A stretch of DNA of 41,627 bases from Oscillospiraceae bacterium. GTDB lineage: Bacteria; Bacillota; Clostridia; Oscillospirales; Oscillospiraceae. A program made the position numbers and the translations under genes. The notes beneath the pieces are model-generated. The model made no database searches and was not told the origin of the DNA. It worked only from the letters and a program-made list of their open reading frames with translations. Positions 3,569 to 40,212 of this stretch are shown here, piece after piece (the first letter of the stretch is position 1; every line of letters begins with the position of its first letter). The stretch is from contig JAISJH010000113.1 in NCBI GenBank assembly GCA_031261635.1, positions 1 to 41,627 of the forward strand, given 5' to 3'.

Positions 3569-6193
3569 CTACTCCGTCCTGAGCGCGACTACCGGGTCCT
3601 TATTCGCGGCTACGCGGCTTGGTATCAGACCCGCTATGAACGTTAGCGCGCAGCTTAGTACCACAAGCAGCACTCCTCCTACTACGGGGAGCTTTGACAC
3701 GTTCGGTATATCCGTCAGCATCTCTATTATAGCATTTGCCGGAATATTTATCAAGAGGGTAATTCCGATTCCGATTAAACCCGCCGCGAGACCCACCGTA
3801 AGGCTTTCCGCGTTGAATACTGTGGCTATATCGCCCTTGCTCGCGCCTATTGATTTCAGTACGCCGATTTCCTTTGTGCGTTCAAGCACCGATACGAAGG
3901 TTATAATACCAATCATAATTGAGCTAACAACAAGCGAGATACTTACAAAGCCTATCAGCAGATAGCTTATGGCGTTAATAATGTTACTGACGCTCGACAT
4001 AAGCAGACCTATAAAGTCAGTGTAGCGAAGCGGCTGCGCGTCCGGGTCTGCGTCTGTGCGCTCTGTGTTATAGCGGTCAATCAGCTCCACAATGCCGTCT
4101 TTGGCTTCGAAGTCTTTTGGGTAGATACTGATTGAATTGGGGCGCGTTTCTGACACTATGCCAAGCTTTAAGAGGTTATTTTCAATGTTCGCGTCGCTTG
4201 TGGTGCTGTACTGCTCCATAAGGGCGGCAATCTGCTCGTCCGTCATTCCCGCTAGCATTGCCTGGTATTCCTCTGGAACCTGCGAGATATCAAAGGCTTC
4301 GGGAGGCGCGTCCGGGTCGGCGAAAGGTTTGCCGGAGAACACGTCGGAGCTTTCGTCAGACAGCTGCGATTTAACTATATCGTATTCGCCTGTTTTATCC
4401 ATCATATATTTTGTAAGCTCGGGAGTATAGCCTACAAAGCCTCCCGCCGCCGCCATATCGCTGTCGGCTTTCTGCCGCACTATGCCGACTACCGTTAAGG
4501 TAAGCGCGTTATTGAGCGCACCGCGCATATAGTCGCTGTTAGTAGAGCGGTCCTGCCATATCCCGGCAGAGGTTTTTTCATACAGCGCGGCGTTAGGCAG
4601 AAGCTTATAGGTAAGCCCGATTAGGTCGTCGTATTCATAAACAAGCGACTCGGCCTCCATACCCTTGCCGGTCATTACGTCGCTTATAAGGGTTTTCAGG
4701 CTACTGGTGTCTTTCAGACCTAAAGCGTAGAGCGTGTAGTCAGTAATCTCGTTGCGCTCGTTGACGTGAATGATTATCTCGTCGTAGTTAGACGGCCATT
4801 TTCCGGCTATTACGTCATACTGCGAGTCAAGCATTTTCTGCGGGAGCATTTCGTACCAGACTTCCATACCGCTGCTCATCATTGACATACCGCCCATACC
4901 GCCGAGCTGCGATTCGGTGCCTCCCATAGAAACGGTGCCGGATTTATCGCCGGGCGCCATTCCGACTATCGGAGCCATATAGTACGCGGGATTTAACTGC
5001 ACAACCTCGTCCGGGTTTCCCTTGAAAATATTCATCTGCACGTTATAGCTGTAGGAAACGTTGTTAGCAAGCTCGTCAATCTCCGTTTTGTGAGCCTCGA
5101 GGTATTCCCTGAACGCTCCGAGGTCGTTTTTCTGACCTATTGAGGCGGTCATTCCGTTTACCATACTGCTCATTACGTCGAGGGAGTAGACCTTACCGTC
5201 CTCGTGGGTCTGCGATTCCTGGCGCATATCGGACATTGAGCCGAACAGCGCGGAGAGGTCTGTCGTCTGCTCCTGTATCTGAAGCGGGTAGCTTGACAAC
5301 GTATCCTCCTGAACCTTGTCAATATACGACTGCATACCGTTAGACAGCGACAGTATAAGCGCAATCCCGATAATACCGATAGAACCCGCAAAGGCGGTAA
5401 GGAAAGTCCGCGCCTTTTTAGTCATAAGGTTATTTAAGCTAAGTGACAGCGCGGTAAAGAAGCCCATAGAGGTCTTGCGCCCCAGGGGTTTATTGTCGCT
5501 GAGTTCCGTTTCCGGGTCAAAGGGGCGCGTATCGGACAGCACCTGTCCGTCAAGCAGGCGCACGGTACGGTTTGCGTAGCGGTCGGCTAAATCGCCGTTG
5601 TGCGTAACCATTATTACGAGCCGGTCGCTTGCGATTTCGCGCAGGATATCCATAATCTGAACAGACGTTTCGCTGTCGAGCGCACCCGTGGGTTCGTCAG
5701 CCATAAGAATATCGGGGTTATTGACAAGGGCGCGGGCAATGGCGACGCGCTGCATCTGCCCGCCGGACATCTGATTGGGCTTTTTCTTAGCCTGGTCGGA
5801 TAGTCCTACCTTTGACAGAGCCTCCATAGCGCGTCTGCGCCGCTCCGTTTTTCCAACGCCGGAGAGCGTCATTGCAAGCTCGACGTTTGACAAAACCGTC
5901 TGGTGAGTTATGAGGTTATAGTTCTGAAACACGAAGCCGACTTTGCGGTTACGGTAGGTGTCCCATTCGCGGTCTGTAAAGCTCTTGGTTGATTTGCCGT
6001 TGATGATTAAGTCGCCGGAGGTATAGCGGTCTAAACCCCCTAAGATATTGAGCATTGTCGTCTTACCGCAGCCGGACGGGCCGAGTATGGCGGCAAATTC
6101 GTTATCCCTGAACGCGAGGTTAACGCCACGGAGCGCCTGAACGTTAGTCGTCCCCGCCTTGTAGTCTTTTGTGATACTTTTTAGTTGGAGCAT
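3569..6193 (-). CDS. ABC transporter, ATPase-permease fusion of MacB/FtsX type
   Basis: 874 residues. The N-terminal ATPase (1-230) has Walker A GPSGCGKTT (38-46), signature MSGGQ, Walker B ILMADEPTGALD and switch VTHN. The permease half has one membrane segment near 250-275, a large extracytoplasmic domain, and three C-terminal segments ending in the FtsX-like VAANKDPVVALRTE. This is the MacB topology: such proteins act from outside on peptides, lipoproteins or antimicrobials rather than as classic channels. No MacA-like adaptor is adjacent. The domain order matches Gram-positive fused LolD/FtsX-type proteins often controlled by two-component systems. GGAGGA sits 7 nt before the ATG. The extracytoplasmic domain has a Gly/Met-rich loop (SQLGGMGGMSMMSSGM). 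Substrate unknown. Confidence 0.92.
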   Translation of the reverse strand: MLQLKSITKDYKAGTTNVQALRGVNLAFRDNEFAAILGPSGCGKTTMLNILGGLDRYTSGDLIINGKSTKSFTDREWDTYRNRKVGFVFQNYNLITHQTVLSNVELAMTLSGVGKTERRRRAMEALSKVGLSDQAKKKPNQMSGGQMQRVAIARALVNNPDILMADEPTGALDSETSVQIMDILREIASDRLVIMVTHNGDLADRYANRTVRLLDGQVLSDTRPFDPETELSDNKPLGRKTSMGFFTALSLSLNNLMTKKARTFLTAFAGSIGIIGIALILSLSNGMQSYIDKVQEDTLSSYPLQIQEQTTDLSALFGSMSDMRQESQTHEDGKVYSLDVMSSMVNGMTASIGQKNDLGAFREYLEAHKTEIDELANNVSYSYNVQMNIFKGNPDEVVQLNPAYYMAPIVGMAPGDKSGTVSMGGTESQLGGMGGMSMMSSGMEVWYEMLPQKMLDSQYDVIAGKWPSNYDEIIIHVNERNEITDYTLYALGLKDTSSLKTLISDVMTGKGMEAESLVYEYDDLIGLTYKLLPNAALYEKTSAGIWQDRSTNSDYMRGALNNALTLTVVGIVRQKADSDMAAAGGFVGYTPELTKYMMDKTGEYDIVKSQLSDESSDVFSGKPFADPDAPPEAFDISQVPEEYQAMLAGMTDEQIAALMEQYSTTSDANIENNLLKLGIVSETRPNSISIYPKDFEAKDGIVELIDRYNTERTDADPDAQPLRYTDFIGLLMSSVSNIINAISYLLIGFVSISLVVSSIMIGIITFVSVLERTKEIGVLKSIGASKGDIATVFNAESLTVGLAAGLIGIGITLLINIPANAIIEMLTDIPNVSKLPVVGGVLLVVLSCALTFIAGLIPSRVAANKDPVVALRTE

Positions 6194-33740: not shown

Positions 33741-36700
33741 TCACGCTGTCTTTTCAATGTAGTTTTTCAAAATCCCGGCAACTCCTACGCGGGTTGCTAT
33801 GCCTTTTGGGTTTATTTTGCCGTTTTCGTCGCCGCTTGCGAGGCCGTTTGCTAACGCCCAGTTTAGGCCGGACTGCGTATAGGGCGACGCTTCGTTTGCG
33901 TCCGGGAAGCGGGATAAGTCGGCTGTTCCGCTTACGTCTGCGCCGCGCGTTTTTGCCAGGTTATACAGTAGCTGGAACATTTCGCCGCGTGTGATTTGCC
34001 GCTCCGGGGCTGTGCCGTCTGAAATGCCCTGTGCTACCGCCCAGTCTACGCCCTTGCTGTACCACTTCGCGCCGCCGCTTGTGTCAACCCCGGCGTATTT
34101 CGCGAGCAGCGTGAACATTTGCCCGCGCGTCAGTTTCCGCGCCGCCTCGAAATTGCCGTCTATACCCTCTATCAAGTTGTTGCTGTAGCTGAACCTCGCT
34201 ATTTTGTAGAACCAGTCGCTTTTCACTATATCGCCGAAGGGGTTAATCCACTCGGCAACCATAAACCTTGAAAAGTGCGTTGTGGTGAACACAATCCGCT
34301 TAGTTACCGGGTCAAAGCGCGCGCCCGAAACCTCCGACAAATTCCCGCTGTCGTCTACGTAGTAGACGGTTAAGAGGTCGTAATCCTCGGTTTTGACTTC
34401 CACGGGCGGCGTGTAGGGAGTTTTAACGGTCACTTCGCCCTTGAAATCGTGGATTACCGTGTTTCCAACCGTCACGGTTAATTCTATGAGCGCGGTTTCA
34501 ATCTCGCTCGCGGTGATTTTTACTGTATCTGTGTCGGCCTTGTTTTCAGCTATGCCGGAGAGCGTTGCGTTATCGAGCGTGATTGTCGCTACTTCGCTCT
34601 CAATTGTGAGTACAACGTCTTTTGCCGCCGCGATTTCCTTGACGGCCTCGACTATTAAATCAAGCTCGGCGGTTGTGACTTTAGACGCGGTTTCGCCCGT
34701 TTTGGGTTCCTCCGGCTTTACAACTATTATGACCTCGGTGCTTGTGTCCGTTTTGCCCTCGGACGCTTTTACCGCTTCGGCGACTGCCTTGGTTATGGCG
34801 TCTGTTTTGACTTCGACAATTGCCGTGACGCTTCCGTCGTCCGCTGTTTTGATGGTAGCCGCCGGGACGTCTACCGTTACCGCTTCGGCGAGTTTGCTAT
34901 CCGGCGTATCAGTTGTATCGGTTGTATTCGCGCCGCCTCCGGAGGCGGTGGTATCATTGTTTCCTGCGGGCGGCGTATTCCCGGTTGGTGGAGCTGTGTC
35001 GGCAACCAGTAGCCACTTGTTCTGGTCGTCAGGGGTACCCTGCGACCCCCCAAACCAATCCTCAATCTCTGTTAAATAGTCGTTGACATAGTGCCAGACG
35101 ACTATATCGCCGTTTTGTAAGTCGTACTCCAGCAAGCCCCTGTCCGCGTGGTGGTCGTTAACGGTGTACATCCAGCCGGAGTTTACGCCGTTGTCAAATT
35201 CCGCGAGCGCGTAGCCGCCGTAGCCGCTCGGCGCGGTTATGCTCTCGATATAGTTCTTGTCCGCTCCGACCTGCGTCAAGCCCGCGTCCGCTATGGCTTT
35301 TACGAATAGCTCGCTCATTCGCGAGCCTAGCGGGAGCGTGTAAGTGCGCGTCTGTATCCAGTTTTGATACGCAGTGCCTGTAGGCAATTTTTCCGCGCCG
35401 ACTAGGCGGAACGTTACGGTGACGTTTGTCGGCTGTTGCGGACTTGTGTTGTATATCCAGTGCGCTTTTAAGGTAACCGCCGGAAGCCCGAGCGCGATTA
35501 CTGCTTGAACGCTCTGAATTTTTGTAGTCCCGGAGTACCAGCCGTCAAACGTGCGGCTGGGAGGATACGTCGGTATCGGCAGCTGCTCCGATGTTCCCGC
35601 AACGTACACTCGCGTAGTAGCTCCATCTAAAGTGCCTCCGTCCGTGTTGAACGTTACGCTTACCGATGCCGGAGCGCTTGCCTCGTCATCTTCCTCGAGA
35701 TTGAAGTAGCCAATCCACGGAGCTTTGTTTTCGTCCTGTACTATGATACGGATTATTTCGTGGTCTGGAATAGCCGCAAACCCGCGCGTTGCACCGCGAA
35801 CGCTGTTGATGTATACGTTCGCGGCCGTTGTGTCAACCGTTACCTCAAACGCGCCGTTCGGCACTGTTATTGCCTCGTCAGATTCAAGGTCAACCTCTGC
35901 CCCGGCGATTGTTACCTTTGTCGGCGCGGAGGTCTCCCCTACTGCCGTGCTATTGGCTTTTGCTTTACGCATACCGTTGACTTCCGTGGATTTTTCGCCT
36001 ATGCCGCCGTTTACTATGTCCGTGGCGGTTTGAATTTTAATGTAATGTATATCGCCGAGCGTGACAGGTTGCCCGTCAGCGTCAACCGCCCATTTTAGGT
36101 CGAAGCCGTCTGTGCGGTCGGTTATGTTGCTTCCGTATTCCAGAACAAGCCCCGCATACGGGTTTGACGCTACGTTGTTGTTCTCGTCCGCTGTCGCCTT
36201 TTTGCCTACGTCGGCATAGCCGAAGTCGGGGTAAGGCGCGTTTTGAGACGTATCAGTTCGCAGCAGTTCCACGCCGGAGAGCGTGAACGCTGTTTCCTTG
36301 CCCTCCCAGTCAAACAGCGGGTATTTTGCCGCCTCGGGGAAAGCGTTGCCGCTTGAATAGGTTGCCTCGTGGTTCCACAACGCGTTATCGTCGTAGTGCA
36401 TCGCTCCCGCGAGATTGTACCACGTTTCGCCGTCCTCCGACACAAGCACGTTGCCCGGCTCGGAGAACGCGGCGTTACCGCCTACGGAATTGCCGAATAC
36501 TATGAAATCCACGCCGTAGGGGTTATTCGGGTTGTCCGTTATCGGGGTGTCATAGTAATACGTAATGTAGCCGCCAAAGTTGCCGAGCGAGGTGGGGCCG
36601 GTATTGATGTTTAATGTAGTCTCGCTTACGTTCGCGCCGCGTAAAGTCGCTACGCCGTTCATACCGTAGGGGCCAAGACCTAAGCCGTTAGTATACTGCG

Positions 36701-38618
36701 AGCCGGGTACTATGTATTCGGCTACGCGCGTCGGCATACCGCTGTATGCCTGCGTGTAGCAGGTGAAGGCGTATGTTACGCCCGCAACCGTTACGTTTGT
36801 GGTTGTGCCGTCAACGGACGTGGGTAGCGTAAGCGTCCAGACGTTGCTGTCGCCTATGCGTTCCGCGCTTCCGGCGGCGGGAATGACCTGCGCTTCGGAA
36901 CTTACGCTGATTTCAAAGGTTCCGTTGTCCGCGCCGTGCCATACAACGGCGTCGTATTGGTTGACTTTTACGCTGTACTTGGGCGTTGCGTTATTGTCAT
37001 AGTTGTAATTGCCGAGCAGTTGACCGTTTGTGATATCAACGCTCTCGATTACCCCCGCCGGCTCAACCGTTACTACGAGCCAGGGGGACATTATAGGCGA
37101 CCAGTAATCCGGCTCATAATTATATGCGGACACTATGTATTCGCCCGGTTCGTCAAATAGCAAACTGACCTCGCCGTCCTCGTTTGAAATGTCTAGCGGA
37201 GTATCGGCAAAGAGCCCGTCCTCGTCAACAAGTACGACAGCCGCGTCCTCAATCGGTGCGGCGTGTTCTTTCCACTCGTCAGGAGGATACATCATTGCGC
37301 CGTCAACGCCCGATACAATCAGGTCGAGCGGTTCGCCAACGTATGCGGTCACGGCTTCGGTTTTTTCACCGTTCTGCTCAAACCATACATAGGCGTCCAG
37401 CCAGGTTCCGTCTTGCAAAACGAAAAACTCAACTACATCGCCCTCTTGCAATACTGCGTCATTCAGTGCGTAACCCAAACCGTCGTCATTCGGCAAATCG
37501 CCATTTACAAAGTAAACCGGGTAATAGTCTGTATACATTGCCGTAGTAACAAAACCACCGCTTTCCGTCAATGCTTCGTTGATATCCGTCACATCATCGC
37601 CAAAAATTGAGATGTGCAGAGCGACAAGCGCGTCAAGAGCGGTAACGGCGTTCGGAATTTCGCCCGTATAACCGCTGTAGCCGTATTCCGCCGCCAAGCC
37701 CGGCGTTACACCGATTTCCTGTCGCCCAAAAACGAAACCGCTGTCGTCATTCAAGTAGCTAACATTGACGCTGATAGGGTCAGGTTGCGGGGCGAGATTT
37801 ATGCTATCGTCCTCGTAGAAATAGACTTCAGCATTTGCGCCGTTTTTGGGATAAGGTTCACTAAAGACCACTCTATAATTGAATTTTTCAGAGGGGAATT
37901 GGTAGCCCTCTAGCGCGTATTCATCAATATTTTCAGCATATTTTCCATTAAATTGTTGATAAGCGGGATAGTTGGTTAAAAAAGCCTCGTAACTTGGAAA
38001 ACGCGGATTTGCCGCAAGAACCTCATTTTGATAATTTGTCAAGTAGGTTTGGAAACTGGAATATGTGTTTATTTTCGTAATTGCCGCTGCATATGAGGGA
38101 CTAGCTGTAAAAGTATCTACATACGCGCCACGTGCAGACGCCGCACCCGTGAACGCAGCATAATCTGTAAAATAAGTATTGCTATGCGCCAATACAGAGC
38201 TTGCTTCTGTAATTTCAGCGAGAACAAAGCTCGCTTCTGTTGTTCCACCCGGAATCATTGAATTATAGCCGGACTCAAGTCCGTTAACGTGAAAGCCGCC
38301 GTAAGTATAGCTTGTCAAAACTTCATTGGGGTCATCAACCGTAATACTGCCGATATATCCCTCCGGAATACCGACTTGAAATATATATTTCCAAGTATTA
38401 ATATTTGTAGAATATCTTATAAACTCTACCGGAACTATTTGACCATTGTCCAACTTGAATGAAATCGGAGAAGTATTGTAGTCAAATATATTACGCTCAT
38501 TGCTAGCAATAGTAATATCGCTTGACCAATTCCACGCAGACGCAAACAGCGCAGCCGGGAATAACGACAATACGAGGATAGCGGAGAGAAGCAGGGATAA
38601 TACGCGTTTTGTTTTCAT
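33741..38618 (-). CDS. Very large secreted surface protein with DUF4430-like modules and SLH anchor
   Basis: 1625 residues. Signal peptide 1-28 (ends ALFASA). About 285-402 is a DUF4430-like module (AVTALDALVALH, YFVNGDLPNDD, LQEGDVVEFFVLQD). 404-518 is Ig-like and 620-900 has PGNVLVSEDGETWYNLAG. An InlB-type repeat lies at 985-1055 (FNTDGGTLDG, FDGWYSG). A clear DUF4430 domain covers 1067-1180 (NSGWMYTVND, LQNGDIVVWHYVND), then a Pro/Thr/Gly linker 1205-1242, a domain at 1245-1455, and three SLH repeats at 1458-1625. DUF4430 resembles the C-terminal domain of transcobalamin/intrinsic factor. With the riboswitch at 40070-40175 this suggests a wall-bound corrinoid-binding protein. The first 250 codons are visibly AT-richer. 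AAGGTGA precedes the ATG. Confidence 0.88.
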   Translation of the reverse strand: MKTKRVLSLLLSAILVLSLFPAALFASAWNWSSDITIASNERNIFDYNTSPISFKLDNGQIVPVEFIRYSTNINTWKYIFQVGIPEGYIGSITVDDPNEVLTSYTYGGFHVNGLESGYNSMIPGGTTEASFVLAEITEASSVLAHSNTYFTDYAAFTGAASARGAYVDTFTASPSYAAAITKINTYSSFQTYLTNYQNEVLAANPRFPSYEAFLTNYPAYQQFNGKYAENIDEYALEGYQFPSEKFNYRVVFSEPYPKNGANAEVYFYEDDSINLAPQPDPISVNVSYLNDDSGFVFGRQEIGVTPGLAAEYGYSGYTGEIPNAVTALDALVALHISIFGDDVTDINEALTESGGFVTTAMYTDYYPVYFVNGDLPNDDGLGYALNDAVLQEGDVVEFFVLQDGTWLDAYVWFEQNGEKTEAVTAYVGEPLDLIVSGVDGAMMYPPDEWKEHAAPIEDAAVVLVDEDGLFADTPLDISNEDGEVSLLFDEPGEYIVSAYNYEPDYWSPIMSPWLVVTVEPAGVIESVDITNGQLLGNYNYDNNATPKYSVKVNQYDAVVWHGADNGTFEISVSSEAQVIPAAGSAERIGDSNVWTLTLPTSVDGTTTNVTVAGVTYAFTCYTQAYSGMPTRVAEYIVPGSQYTNGLGLGPYGMNGVATLRGANVSETTLNINTGPTSLGNFGGYITYYYDTPITDNPNNPYGVDFIVFGNSVGGNAAFSEPGNVLVSEDGETWYNLAGAMHYDDNALWNHEATYSSGNAFPEAAKYPLFDWEGKETAFTLSGVELLRTDTSQNAPYPDFGYADVGKKATADENNNVASNPYAGLVLEYGSNITDRTDGFDLKWAVDADGQPVTLGDIHYIKIQTATDIVNGGIGEKSTEVNGMRKAKANSTAVGETSAPTKVTIAGAEVDLESDEAITVPNGAFEVTVDTTAANVYINSVRGATRGFAAIPDHEIIRIIVQDENKAPWIGYFNLEEDDEASAPASVSVTFNTDGGTLDGATTRVYVAGTSEQLPIPTYPPSRTFDGWYSGTTKIQSVQAVIALGLPAVTLKAHWIYNTSPQQPTNVTVTFRLVGAEKLPTGTAYQNWIQTRTYTLPLGSRMSELFVKAIADAGLTQVGADKNYIESITAPSGYGGYALAEFDNGVNSGWMYTVNDHHADRGLLEYDLQNGDIVVWHYVNDYLTEIEDWFGGSQGTPDDQNKWLLVADTAPPTGNTPPAGNNDTTASGGGANTTDTTDTPDSKLAEAVTVDVPAATIKTADDGSVTAIVEVKTDAITKAVAEAVKASEGKTDTSTEVIIVVKPEEPKTGETASKVTTAELDLIVEAVKEIAAAKDVVLTIESEVATITLDNATLSGIAENKADTDTVKITASEIETALIELTVTVGNTVIHDFKGEVTVKTPYTPPVEVKTEDYDLLTVYYVDDSGNLSEVSGARFDPVTKRIVFTTTHFSRFMVAEWINPFGDIVKSDWFYKIARFSYSNNLIEGIDGNFEAARKLTRGQMFTLLAKYAGVDTSGGAKWYSKGVDWAVAQGISDGTAPERQITRGEMFQLLYNLAKTRGADVSGTADLSRFPDANEASPYTQSGLNWALANGLASGDENGKINPKGIATRVGVAGILKNYIEKTA

Positions 38619-38690
38619 TATATTTCACCTTTTTTATAAATCAAGTTTAGACGAGAGCGGTAGAAACCACTCCCGCCGATGTCTGCCGGG

Positions 38691-39548
38691 TTAGATTGTG
38701 AATTGAACCGGCACTCCTACACGATAAGGAACACCCTCACCGTTATATGTCGGTTGTACATAAATAGTGTGCGTACCCGCTGACACATTATCAATTTTAT
38801 ACAGATGTGAAGCGCTTTGATAATCTGCCGTTTTAGCCGCACCGTCAATATAAACGGTAATGCTAGAAGCCGTTAACGATGTAAAATTTGAAATGTTCCA
38901 GTACCACGTAGAGCTATCGTAGTAGCTCGTGGAGGAAAACAGCGCAACTTCAATGCCGCTCCCTAACGGGCTTGCGCTCTGCACACGGACATATTCGGTA
39001 GGCAAAGTTTGAGCCATATTTGAATAATACAAATTGATTGTATCTCCGGGATTAACATTTGCTTCGGCAATGCTAGCTCCCATTGGCCCGGAAGTAGGGT
39101 CATTGCTTATAAGAGGATATTTGTCGTTGATTCTGAAAGACCAACCGCTGTACGGGTATGTAGAAATTGGGTCATAATCATTCGCGACATAGGAAACAGA
39201 ATCCAGTAAGCTTGAAGATGACGTAATCGGCAGTCCTGCCTGGTCATAGAAAGAATATGAACTGTACGCCGCGTGTGCCGCTACAAGAACGTCATTTACG
39301 TGGTATACTTTAGACGCGCCTAACGTTATTGCTAAAGGTCCGTTTGAAATACCTACTGTCCCGGAGGGTTTTGAACTGTTGATAGTAAGATAAACAACAG
39401 AACTACCGGGGATTGGTTCCGGCTTCGGTTCAATGACGTAGTAAGCGTAGTTATCTGACGGCCAAGTCACCGCCATAGCGGAAAATGAAAAACTGAATGC
39501 CAGCACCATTACGAGTAGTAACGCGATTAGTTTACGCGATTTTTTCAT
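38691..39548 (-). CDS. Secreted DUF4430-like (transcobalamin C-terminal-like) protein
   Basis: 285 residues. Signal peptide MKKSRKLIALLLVMVLAFSF... ending FSAMA (about residue 26). Residues 50-165 look like DUF4430: VYHVNDVLVAAHAAYSSYSF, then YSGWSFRINDKYPL and VNPGDTINLYYS. Residues 170-285 form a beta-rich domain ending in an Ig-like strand pair. No anchor is visible, so it may be free or held by the SLH partner. ATG 39546-39548 has AAGGAGG 9 nt upstream. The frame is open 52 codons further up, but that Arg/Pro-rich stretch is in the structured leader and has no ribosome site. The SLH gene follows after 72 bp, probably in the same transcript. Confidence 0.85.
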   Translation of the reverse strand: MKKSRKLIALLLVMVLAFSFSFSAMAVTWPSDNYAYYVIEPKPEPIPGSSVVYLTINSSKPSGTVGISNGPLAITLGASKVYHVNDVLVAAHAAYSSYSFYDQAGLPITSSSSLLDSVSYVANDYDPISTYPYSGWSFRINDKYPLISNDPTSGPMGASIAEANVNPGDTINLYYSNMAQTLPTEYVRVQSASPLGSGIEVALFSSTSYYDSSTWYWNISNFTSLTASSITVYIDGAAKTADYQSASHLYKIDNVSAGTHTIYVQPTYNGEGVPYRVGVPVQFTI

Positions 39549-39731
39549 AACTTGCGCCCTCCTTCGGCGTGTTGTCGCTTGCAGTATGTAGGGTTGCCCC
39601 GCGGTTGCGGGTTGCCGTCCGTTGGTCTTTGCGTTCGGGACCGGCCGCGCCGGGCGGTCACGGTTCGCGCCGCCGGTCCCCGGGTTGCTCGGTGGGTCTA
39701 ACACTGTTCTGCCCTCCCTGTGTAATTGCCT
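39549..39731 (-). other. GC-rich structured leader of the secreted-protein gene
   Basis: 183 bp without a convincing gene. It holds GGGACCGGC (39637-39645) and its perfect complement GCCGGTCCC (39672-39680) around a GC-rich loop, plus two GGGTTGCC words at 39583-39616. I find no good minus-strand promoter. It matches no riboswitch I know. It could be a long structured 5' leader. Confidence 0.45.
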
Positions 39732-39817
39732 GTGAACGAAAAAACGGAAGTCACCTATCAGACCCGCGCAGCCTGCGCGCTGTCTGATTAGGAACTCCCG
39801 TTCTTCGGTCAGTTCAC
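39732..39817 (-). terminator. Long hairpin terminator after the YezD-like gene
   Basis: On the minus strand AACGGGAGTTCCTAATCAGAC, a GC-rich loop (itself CGCGCAG-CCTGCGCG), GTCTGATAGGTGACTTCCG, then TTTTTT (39739-39744). Outer GTGAAC/GTTCAC extend the dyad to 39732-39817. It begins 1 bp after the small gene's stop. It has the form of a strong intrinsic terminator, which raises the question of how the downstream secreted-protein genes are transcribed. Confidence 0.75.
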
Positions 39818-39818
39818 T

Positions 39819-39968
39819 TTACAGCAATATGCTCTCTTTTATGTTCTCTACGCGGACGGGACCTGCGTCCTTGATAATCACGCGTATTTCGCCGTGTTTG
39901 AGCTTGCGTATTAGCTCGATTAGCTTTCGTTCCTTCTCGCTTAGGACAAGCGAGGGTTTCTCAGGCAC
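39819..39968 (-). CDS. Small DUF2292/YezD-like protein
   Basis: 49 residues, beginning MPEKPSLVLSEKERKLIELI and going on with RKLKHGEIRVIIKDAGPVRV. It starts at GTG 39966-39968 with GAGGGAGGGG about 8 nt upstream. The pattern of a Lys/Glu-rich helix, then GEIRVIIKDxGPVRVE, fits the small DUF2292 (YezD) family, whose function is poorly known; some members lie in sulfur-metabolism operons. It is the first gene after the cobalamin riboswitch and is followed at once by a strong terminator, so it is the gene most directly under riboswitch control. Family assignment is by motif memory only. Confidence 0.75.
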   Translation of the reverse strand: MPEKPSLVLSEKERKLIELIRKLKHGEIRVIIKDAGPVRVENIKESILL

Positions 39969-39997
39969 GTTTAACCCCTCCCTCTTTATTGTGGCAT

Positions 39998-40069
39998 AAA
40001 AAAAGCCGCAACAGCATTACTTATACCGTTACGACGAACGTAAACCGTATGACCTGAATGCCGCAAGTC
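39998..40069 (-). terminator. Riboswitch expression platform with intrinsic terminator
   Basis: On the minus strand the aptamer is followed by ATGAC...GTCAT, then CGGTTTACG-TTCG-TCGTAACGG hairpins, then GCTGTTGCGGC and seven T (39998-40004). CGGCATT (early) can pair with AATGCTG (late), so alternative folds are possible, as needed for a transcriptional switch. Exact folds were not computed. Confidence 0.55.
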
Positions 40070-40175
40070 ATAAGATACGCAGATACCTGACTTCGTGCTG
40101 ATAGCACGTTTACAGTGGCGGTACCGTCCGGGGATTACACCCGAGTTCTGCGCGTTTTGCCCATAAAGGCTTAAA
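40070..40175 (-). ncRNA. Cobalamin riboswitch aptamer
   Basis: Read on the minus strand, the conserved blocks occur in order: GGGCAAAA (40155-40162), CGGGTGTAATCCCCGGACGG, then CCGCCACTGT (L5 GCCACTG at 40113-40119), a variable hairpin GTGCTATCAGCAC, and the B12 box GAAGTCAGGTATCTGC (box core 40084-40092). CGCAGA before the core pairs with TCTGCG after the box, closing the core. The 5' part is short, which points to a variant or class II-like form rather than the long class I form. It is 30-40 nt from a good promoter. It probably turns expression down when cobalamin is plentiful. Confidence 0.87.
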
Positions 40176-40183
40176 TTAACGAT

Positions 40184-40212
40184 AGTATATCACAATTGGT
40201 AATCGTTGTCAA
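40184..40212 (-). promoter_or_regulatory. Promoter of the cobalamin-riboswitch transcript
   Basis: On the minus strand TTGACA (40207-40212), 17-nt spacer, TATACT (40184-40189). Start of transcription expected near 40177, just before the aptamer. Confidence 0.82.

Follow-up and report, generated by a model that had tools for sequence, protein, structure and literature searches.

A cobalamin riboswitch, a YezD-like microprotein and a recurrent hairpin upstream of putative corrinoid-scavenging surface proteins in an Oscillospiraceae bacterium

Introduction

Why should a cobalamin riboswitch stand in front of a gene for a microprotein, and what would such a protein contribute to the surface proteins encoded behind it? 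The question is raised by a minus-strand cassette in the window, by which is meant the whole stretch of 41,627 nucleotides that was analysed, contig C90 of the 2.3-Mb draft genome of an Oscillospiraceae bacterium. The original prediction read this cassette as an apparatus for the surface capture of corrinoids, made when cobalamin is scarce. Context supported that reading, by an Rfam match and a conserved neighbourhood, with corrinoid binding itself remaining a prediction. Absent from it was a conserved hairpin with a strong terminator (39815–39739) located between YezD and the surface genes. Taking these elements together, we judge it probable that the cassette is a response to corrinoid scarcity with two transcription checkpoints in series, in the second of which YezD would act at the hairpin.

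Results

Organization of the minus-strand cassette

The features of the cassette, in the order of transcription, were as follows.

40184–40212, minus strand: sigma-70-like promoter, TTGACA-17-TATACT, matching 11 of 12 consensus positions
40048–40176, minus strand: adenosylcobalamin (AdoCbl) riboswitch aptamer, RF01482, 57.8 bits (gathering cutoff 50, E 3.5e-8)
39998–40035, minus strand: expression-platform terminator 3' of the aptamer, a 13-bp stem and T7
39819–39968, minus strand: yezD-like gene of 49 codons with a GTG start, Pfam DUF2292, with same-position homologs in other genera
39792–39815, minus strand: YezD-associated hairpin, a candidate antiterminator, recognised by a pairing grammar, model R2 and covariation
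39739–39801, minus strand: second intrinsic terminator, T6 at 39744–39739, with P2' and P1' of the hairpin lying within its 5' arm
38691–39548, minus strand: gene for a 285-aa secreted protein, its putative DUF4430/SLBB-like module being divergent (by hhalign), ATG at 39548, with homologs at L154:19392-20306 and L168:5217-6194
33741–38618, minus strand: gene for a 1625-aa surface protein with DUF4430 and three C-terminal SLH repeats (by Pfam)

The cobalamin aptamer with a promoter of its own (40212–40184), which had been proposed from the sequence, was borne out by Rfam, where RF01482 exceeded its gathering cutoff and RF00174 gave 21.3 bits only. The secreted 285-residue and the 1625-residue SLH proteins were likewise encoded on one strand, as had been claimed. 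The polarity of AdoCbl riboswitches is known for the class, and the terminator logic given here for the window is that of the class. The 285-aa and 1625-aa genes were not separated by any visible T-run terminator. Past the second terminator, the leader of the 285-aa gene (39707–39560) is GC-rich and strongly self-complementary, and gave no Rfam match.

Two subfamilies of the YezD microprotein

The small gene had been described as DUF2292-like, and its product passed the Pfam cutoff for this family (23.2 bits, cutoff 22). That relatives have close homologs (47% identity) in the same place makes the assignment firm; identities among the YezD homologs were 33–51%. The window protein has a pI of 9.6, and a Shine-Dalgarno-like GGGAGGGG lies upstream of its gene. 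DUF2292 was the sole Pfam match above cutoff in window YezD, no CAT_RBD domain being found, and the AlphaFold model (pLDDT 60) was too weak to use.

YezD proteins of one subfamily, which end in (R/A/L)VEEIKKSIKL, sit behind cobalamin riboswitches. A cobalamin riboswitch directly preceded yezD in the window and in 13 further units above the Rfam cutoff, and in one unit (L089) just below it; the riboswitch–yezD loci are the window, L087, L153, L154 (three units), L164, L170, L199, L230, L231, L232, L233, L234 and L235. The second subfamily was found in sulfonate-transport and nitrogenase-like operons, and in L207, L212 and L215 its gene was preceded by a SAM riboswitch. YezD as a sulfur-only protein was ruled out, since one subfamily sits behind cobalamin riboswitches.

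Some individual copies deserve mention. One of the yezD copies directly after a cobalamin riboswitch in L154 (2593–2772) has an in-frame TAG where other copies usually encode an amino acid ahead of the conserved D; its remaining frame is intact, and it is probably an inactivated duplicate of the tandem riboswitch–yezD unit. In L217 (1081–1237), a locus of the second subfamily, yezD is closely preceded by the orphan TwoAYGGAY RNA, a possible clue to the role of that RNA. The host encodes a second YezD (G000:C79:13212-13319, locus L091) beside sulfonate-type ABC and nitrogenase-like genes, and the flanks of this copy contained neither the hairpin element nor an Rfam riboswitch.

A hairpin that shares a strand with the second terminator

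The hairpin of the window, just after the yezD stop, consists of P1 (GAAC/GTTC), TGA, P2 (CCG/CGG), the loop AAGAA and GA. The consensus, of ∼31 nt, comprises P1 (4–8 bp), YGA, P2 (3–5 bp starting C-G), an A-rich loop, P2', AG and P1', and recurs 3' of both YezD types, behind cobalamin and SAM riboswitches. Model R2, the training set of which includes the window sequence, matched the window at 39789–39819 (34.4 bits, E 4.2e-7). The pairing grammar, combined with a T-run, located the hairpin downstream of 18 of 53 yezD genes, where chance would give 0.0024 per 230-nt window; no hairpin was recognised for 20 or more of the yezD genes. Covariance model R1 yielded 34 credible matches in 329 kb of mostly yezD loci, compared with one borderline match in 1.36 Mb of yezD-free corrinoid loci.

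Double-sided changes were observed in eight of the nine pairs across 16 copies, a covariation score reached by none of 500 shuffles, and a second set of copies with a 3-bp P2 gave a similar, weaker signal. Some copies had been picked by the pairing grammar, which inflates covariation, and position and genome statistics were therefore weighted above it. In 60 of 62 copies, as against 15% of shuffles, a terminator had the 3' strand of the hairpin for its 5' arm (at least nine paired bases were counted, at least four having proved too loose), so that hairpin and terminator are mutually exclusive.

The hairpin could not be assigned to a known Rfam RNA: Rfam 15 gave only a chance-level mir-9236 match there in the window, and no family at the hairpin in 13 further loci. 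No second copy was found in the window genome. Elsewhere, two or three copies stand in tandem in one leader, as in L294 (G461:C16:818860-818933) and L278 (G465:C84:11164). For bacilli, a 2010 survey of attenuators mentions an alkanesulfonate transporter whose leader was left unexplained (PMC2965389).

Co-occurrence of hairpin and YezD, and a candidate regulon

Within a class sample of 391 genomes the hairpin was detected in 31 and YezD in 35, and 27 of the 31 hairpin genomes carried YezD (p=2e-30); this overall co-occurrence is biased because the hairpin models were built from yezD-adjacent copies, some in the same genomes tested. A comparison free of this bias was confined to remote copies, those >5 kb from yezD or on another contig, which were present in 14 of the 35 YezD genomes and in 4 of the 356 others (p=3e-13, genomes within a genus being non-independent). 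Two genomes of one genus harboured 13 to 15 copies each, and four genomes of the class gave weak hairpin matches without YezD. In the family sample (150 genomes), strong matches to the 3-bp model were obtained in the window, in four other YezD genomes and in G024, where the hairpin follows a cobalamin riboswitch and no YezD was found. At this G024 locus (L306, contig C3, element near 5554) a different small ORF (ending ...YLKSRFGPWPRVLEKAGL...) lies between the riboswitch and the hairpin, as if another small nucleic-acid-binding protein stood in YezD's place.

Genes for methionine and sulfur metabolism followed remote copies: metK, an O-acetylhomoserine sulfhydrylase, a MetN-type ABC ATPase, an SAH/MTA nucleosidase and a PLP-dependent enzyme of the cysteine-synthase type. 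Also encoded there were H and D subunits of nitrogenase-like type, radical SAM proteins resembling NifB, taurine-type ABC parts, URO-D methyltransferases and CO dehydrogenase, and genes of the corrinoid-methyltransferase type were among those preceded by remote copies.

From the sequence comparisons, the chances appear about equal that YezD, as a candidate RNA binder, is itself the agent acting on the hairpin; it may instead be only a member of the regulon, with another factor regulating the hairpin. Along these lines, we hold as a tentative alternative that the hairpin itself senses a small molecule, or is the site of another protein, YezD being a frequent member of its regulon. This alternative would be favoured by the many sulfur and methionine genes that stand behind remote copies with no yezD beside them, by the hairpin of G024, a genome in which no YezD was found, and by the conserved UGA/AG internal loop and A-rich loop, which could bind anything. 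Against it, the hairpin is almost confined to YezD genomes and mostly lies directly after or over the yezD stop, and ∼31 nt is small for a riboswitch aptamer.

The position of the hairpin could also suggest that yezD is a translated leader. A ribosome ending at the stop would then sit over the hairpin's 5' strand and select the fold, as in classical translational attenuation, and the peptide would have no regulatory role. The hairpin does start 0–10 nt from the yezD stop, even overlapping it, in several loci (L217, L226, L222, L199 and the window), but it is also found hundreds of nucleotides away from yezD or before other genes, and the C-terminus of YezD is conserved as protein, whereas leader ORFs need no conserved protein sequence. 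We consider a translated leader unlikely.

The surface proteins and their neighbourhood

DUF4430-like modules had been predicted in both surface proteins. For the 1625-aa protein this was upheld by Pfam, with DUF4430 at residues 1118–1178 (38.5 bits, cutoff 23.8) and three SLH repeats; a weak DUF4430-like module was located near residues 300–520, and the homologs also share residues ∼516–1000, a conserved part with no family assigned, besides the DUF4430 and SLH parts. For the 285-aa protein, in which no Pfam DUF4430 or SLH match was found, a putative DUF4430 module showed up only in profile–profile comparison (hhalign of the protein and its two homologs with DUF4430, 91.7%, E 7.6e-7). These two homologs (in L154 and L168) came from the operon search, and neither a GTDB scan nor a protein search of the 150 genomes gave direct homologs. 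The AlphaFold model of the 285-aa protein (pLDDT 52) was too weak to use, and Foldseek gave no match to it at E<=0.001. DUF4430 has been named as the transcobalamin C-terminal domain (PMC4350170). No transcobalamin among PDB sequences was matched by DUF4430 profiles, and the profile of the alpha-toroid matched squalene-hopene cyclase toroids and S-layer proteins in PDB.

Three AdoCbl riboswitch matches were obtained in the host genome (57.8, 42.9 and 30.7 bits), of which the window copy alone passes the RF01482 cutoff. Behind the 42.9-bit match, on contig C20, come an SLH protein that includes an alpha/alpha-toroid-like region, a DUF4430 lipoprotein and a TIM-barrel protein, in an operon that also encodes an ECF-T protein and an ECF ATPase–ATPase–S fusion. 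The weak match of 30.7 bits, on contig C104, precedes BtuF-BtuC-BtuD-type genes with CobT, CobU and CobS; the original prediction had rightly placed no BtuFCD transporter in the window. Every DUF4430 Pfam match of the host genome was on C20 or C90, behind AdoCbl riboswitch matches.

DUF4430 was found in 102 genomes of the family sample and cobalamin riboswitches in 116, and among the matches listed the riboswitch of pairs <10 kb apart was upstream on the same strand in 24, downstream in two and on the opposite strand in one. When GTDB was scanned with the toroid protein, >500 relatives were obtained, of which 80 loci were kept for comparison of operons. The operon in these loci comprised a long DUF4430/SLH protein, a toroid/SLH protein, a DUF4430 lipoprotein, ECF-T and ECF-AAS, and occurred in Oscillospiraceae, Family XIII, Peptococcaceae, Paenibacillus and others. 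Locus L087, from the same genus, contains a cobalamin riboswitch, YezD, a DUF4430/SLH protein, an alpha-toroid SLH protein, a DUF4430 lipoprotein and ECF-T contiguously, and the window locus and C20 therefore look like one operon that has been split. The order riboswitch, YezD, DUF4430/SLH protein was thus kept in L087, and related orders were found in L154 (Pelotomaculum), which has riboswitch–YezD–1625-aa homolog and, separately, riboswitch–YezD–285-aa homolog, and in L168, where the 285-aa homolog lies directly before the 1625-aa homolog behind a riboswitch.

The reading of the cassette as corrinoid-scavenging is well supported by this context, and the surface proteins, candidate binders on the same grounds, likely scavenge B12 or other corrinoids. 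Least likely of the alternatives is that they are adhesins or polysaccharide-binding proteins with an accidental link to the riboswitch, an idea in line with DUF4430 proteins outside B12 contexts (a reviewer comment and author reply among the cited passages of PMC1796856) and with the low confidence of the 285-aa model, but at odds with the same-strand placement of riboswitches in many genomes, the operons shared with ECF transporter and alpha-toroid proteins, and the homologs of both surface proteins behind cobalamin riboswitches.

Discussion

The proposed course of events is the following. At low adenosylcobalamin the aptamer would be empty, the terminator at 40035–39998 would not form, and yezD would be transcribed and translated. 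Past the yezD stop, the transcript would fold either as the hairpin (39815–39792) or as the terminator (39801–39739) that shares the 3' strand of the hairpin. YezD, a basic protein of ∼50 aa, is the most likely agent to bind and stabilise the hairpin, whereupon polymerase would read on; in other species it would act in trans at sulfur and methionine operons. The 285-aa and 1625-aa SLBB/DUF4430 proteins would then be secreted, the SLH repeats holding the latter on the wall, and corrinoids presumably bound by them would pass to the DUF4430 lipoprotein/ECF system (C20) or to BtuFCD (C104).

The antiterminators BglG, LicT and SacY bind ∼30-nt RAT hairpins with internal loops, the 3' strand of which overlaps an intrinsic terminator, and several operons may stand under one such protein. 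The YezD hairpin is similarly exclusive of an intrinsic terminator, and YezD resembles these proteins in being a small putative RNA-binding module. In contrast to them, it is a stand-alone protein of ∼50 aa without PTS regulatory domains, encoded behind metabolite riboswitches, and the sequence of its hairpin differs. Because there is no CAT_RBD match in Pfam, YezD would work like the RAT/BglG systems rather than be a member of them. As in S-box (SAM-I) and cobalamin riboswitch regulons, sulfur/methionine and B12 genes would be subject to a choice between terminator and antiterminator; unlike there, the gene behind the riboswitch encodes a microprotein, and the downstream and remote genes have a second, different RNA element.

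It is an evenly poised proposition that YezD microproteins form a new class of RNA-binding antiterminators, gated by B12 or SAM riboswitches and acting on the hairpin in cis and in trans in a regulon of Clostridia; as part of it, sulfur, methionine, nitrogenase-like and corrinoid genes would share the signal of one riboswitch. Riboswitches are regarded as cis-acting. If the proposition is true, a single metabolite reading would govern a dispersed regulon by way of a small trans-acting RNA-binding protein gated by a riboswitch, and the DUF2292/YezD family would gain a function; with the hairpin model, this can be tested in one genome after another. The recurrence of YezD and the hairpin in B12 and sulfur genes, with a gut-type bacterium as the apparent host, suggests a new kind of gene regulator. 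No literature was found on the function of YezD, on this hairpin or on riboswitch-controlled SLH transcobalamin-like loci, in a search that had most subscription papers outside its scope and is weak evidence of novelty.

We take the folds of BtuG and BtuH to be unrelated to those of the window SLBB proteins. The likeness lies in capture of corrinoids at the cell surface ahead of membrane transport, which is predicted for the window and described for Bacteroides (PMC6143338). BtuG and BtuH are outer-membrane lipoproteins, unlike the SLH-anchored SLBB proteins of the window. Closer are the operons of Burroughs et al. (2007; PMC1796856), the cited passages of which place the C-terminal beta-grasp domain of transcobalamin in surface proteins of Gram-positive bacteria and predict B12 scavenging; an alpha/alpha toroid frequently accompanies the domain there, as do a second paralog and genes for CbiO/CbiQ. 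Both have secreted or surface DUF4430-type domains, a toroid partner, a second SLBB paralog, an ECF-type ATPase and a CbiQ-like membrane protein, and because SLBB proteins of this type are described in those passages, the surface part belongs to the kind of scavenger predicted in 2007. The differences are that the toroid and ECF parts belonging to the window lie on contig C20, an ECF/CbiQ-type transporter being associated with the toroid there and in relatives, outside the window itself, and that, set against the operons as those passages describe them, the surface genes of the window stand behind an AdoCbl riboswitch, YezD and a second attenuator. The surface part thus adds riboswitch evidence and named operons to the prediction of Gram-positive transcobalamin-like scavengers.

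Two DUF4430 proteins with toroid-like regions from riboswitch-type loci carry further domains, a dockerin in L109:1369-4074 and a cohesin with a dockerin in L127:6662-9073, hinting at a cellulosome-like assembly of corrinoid-capture proteins.
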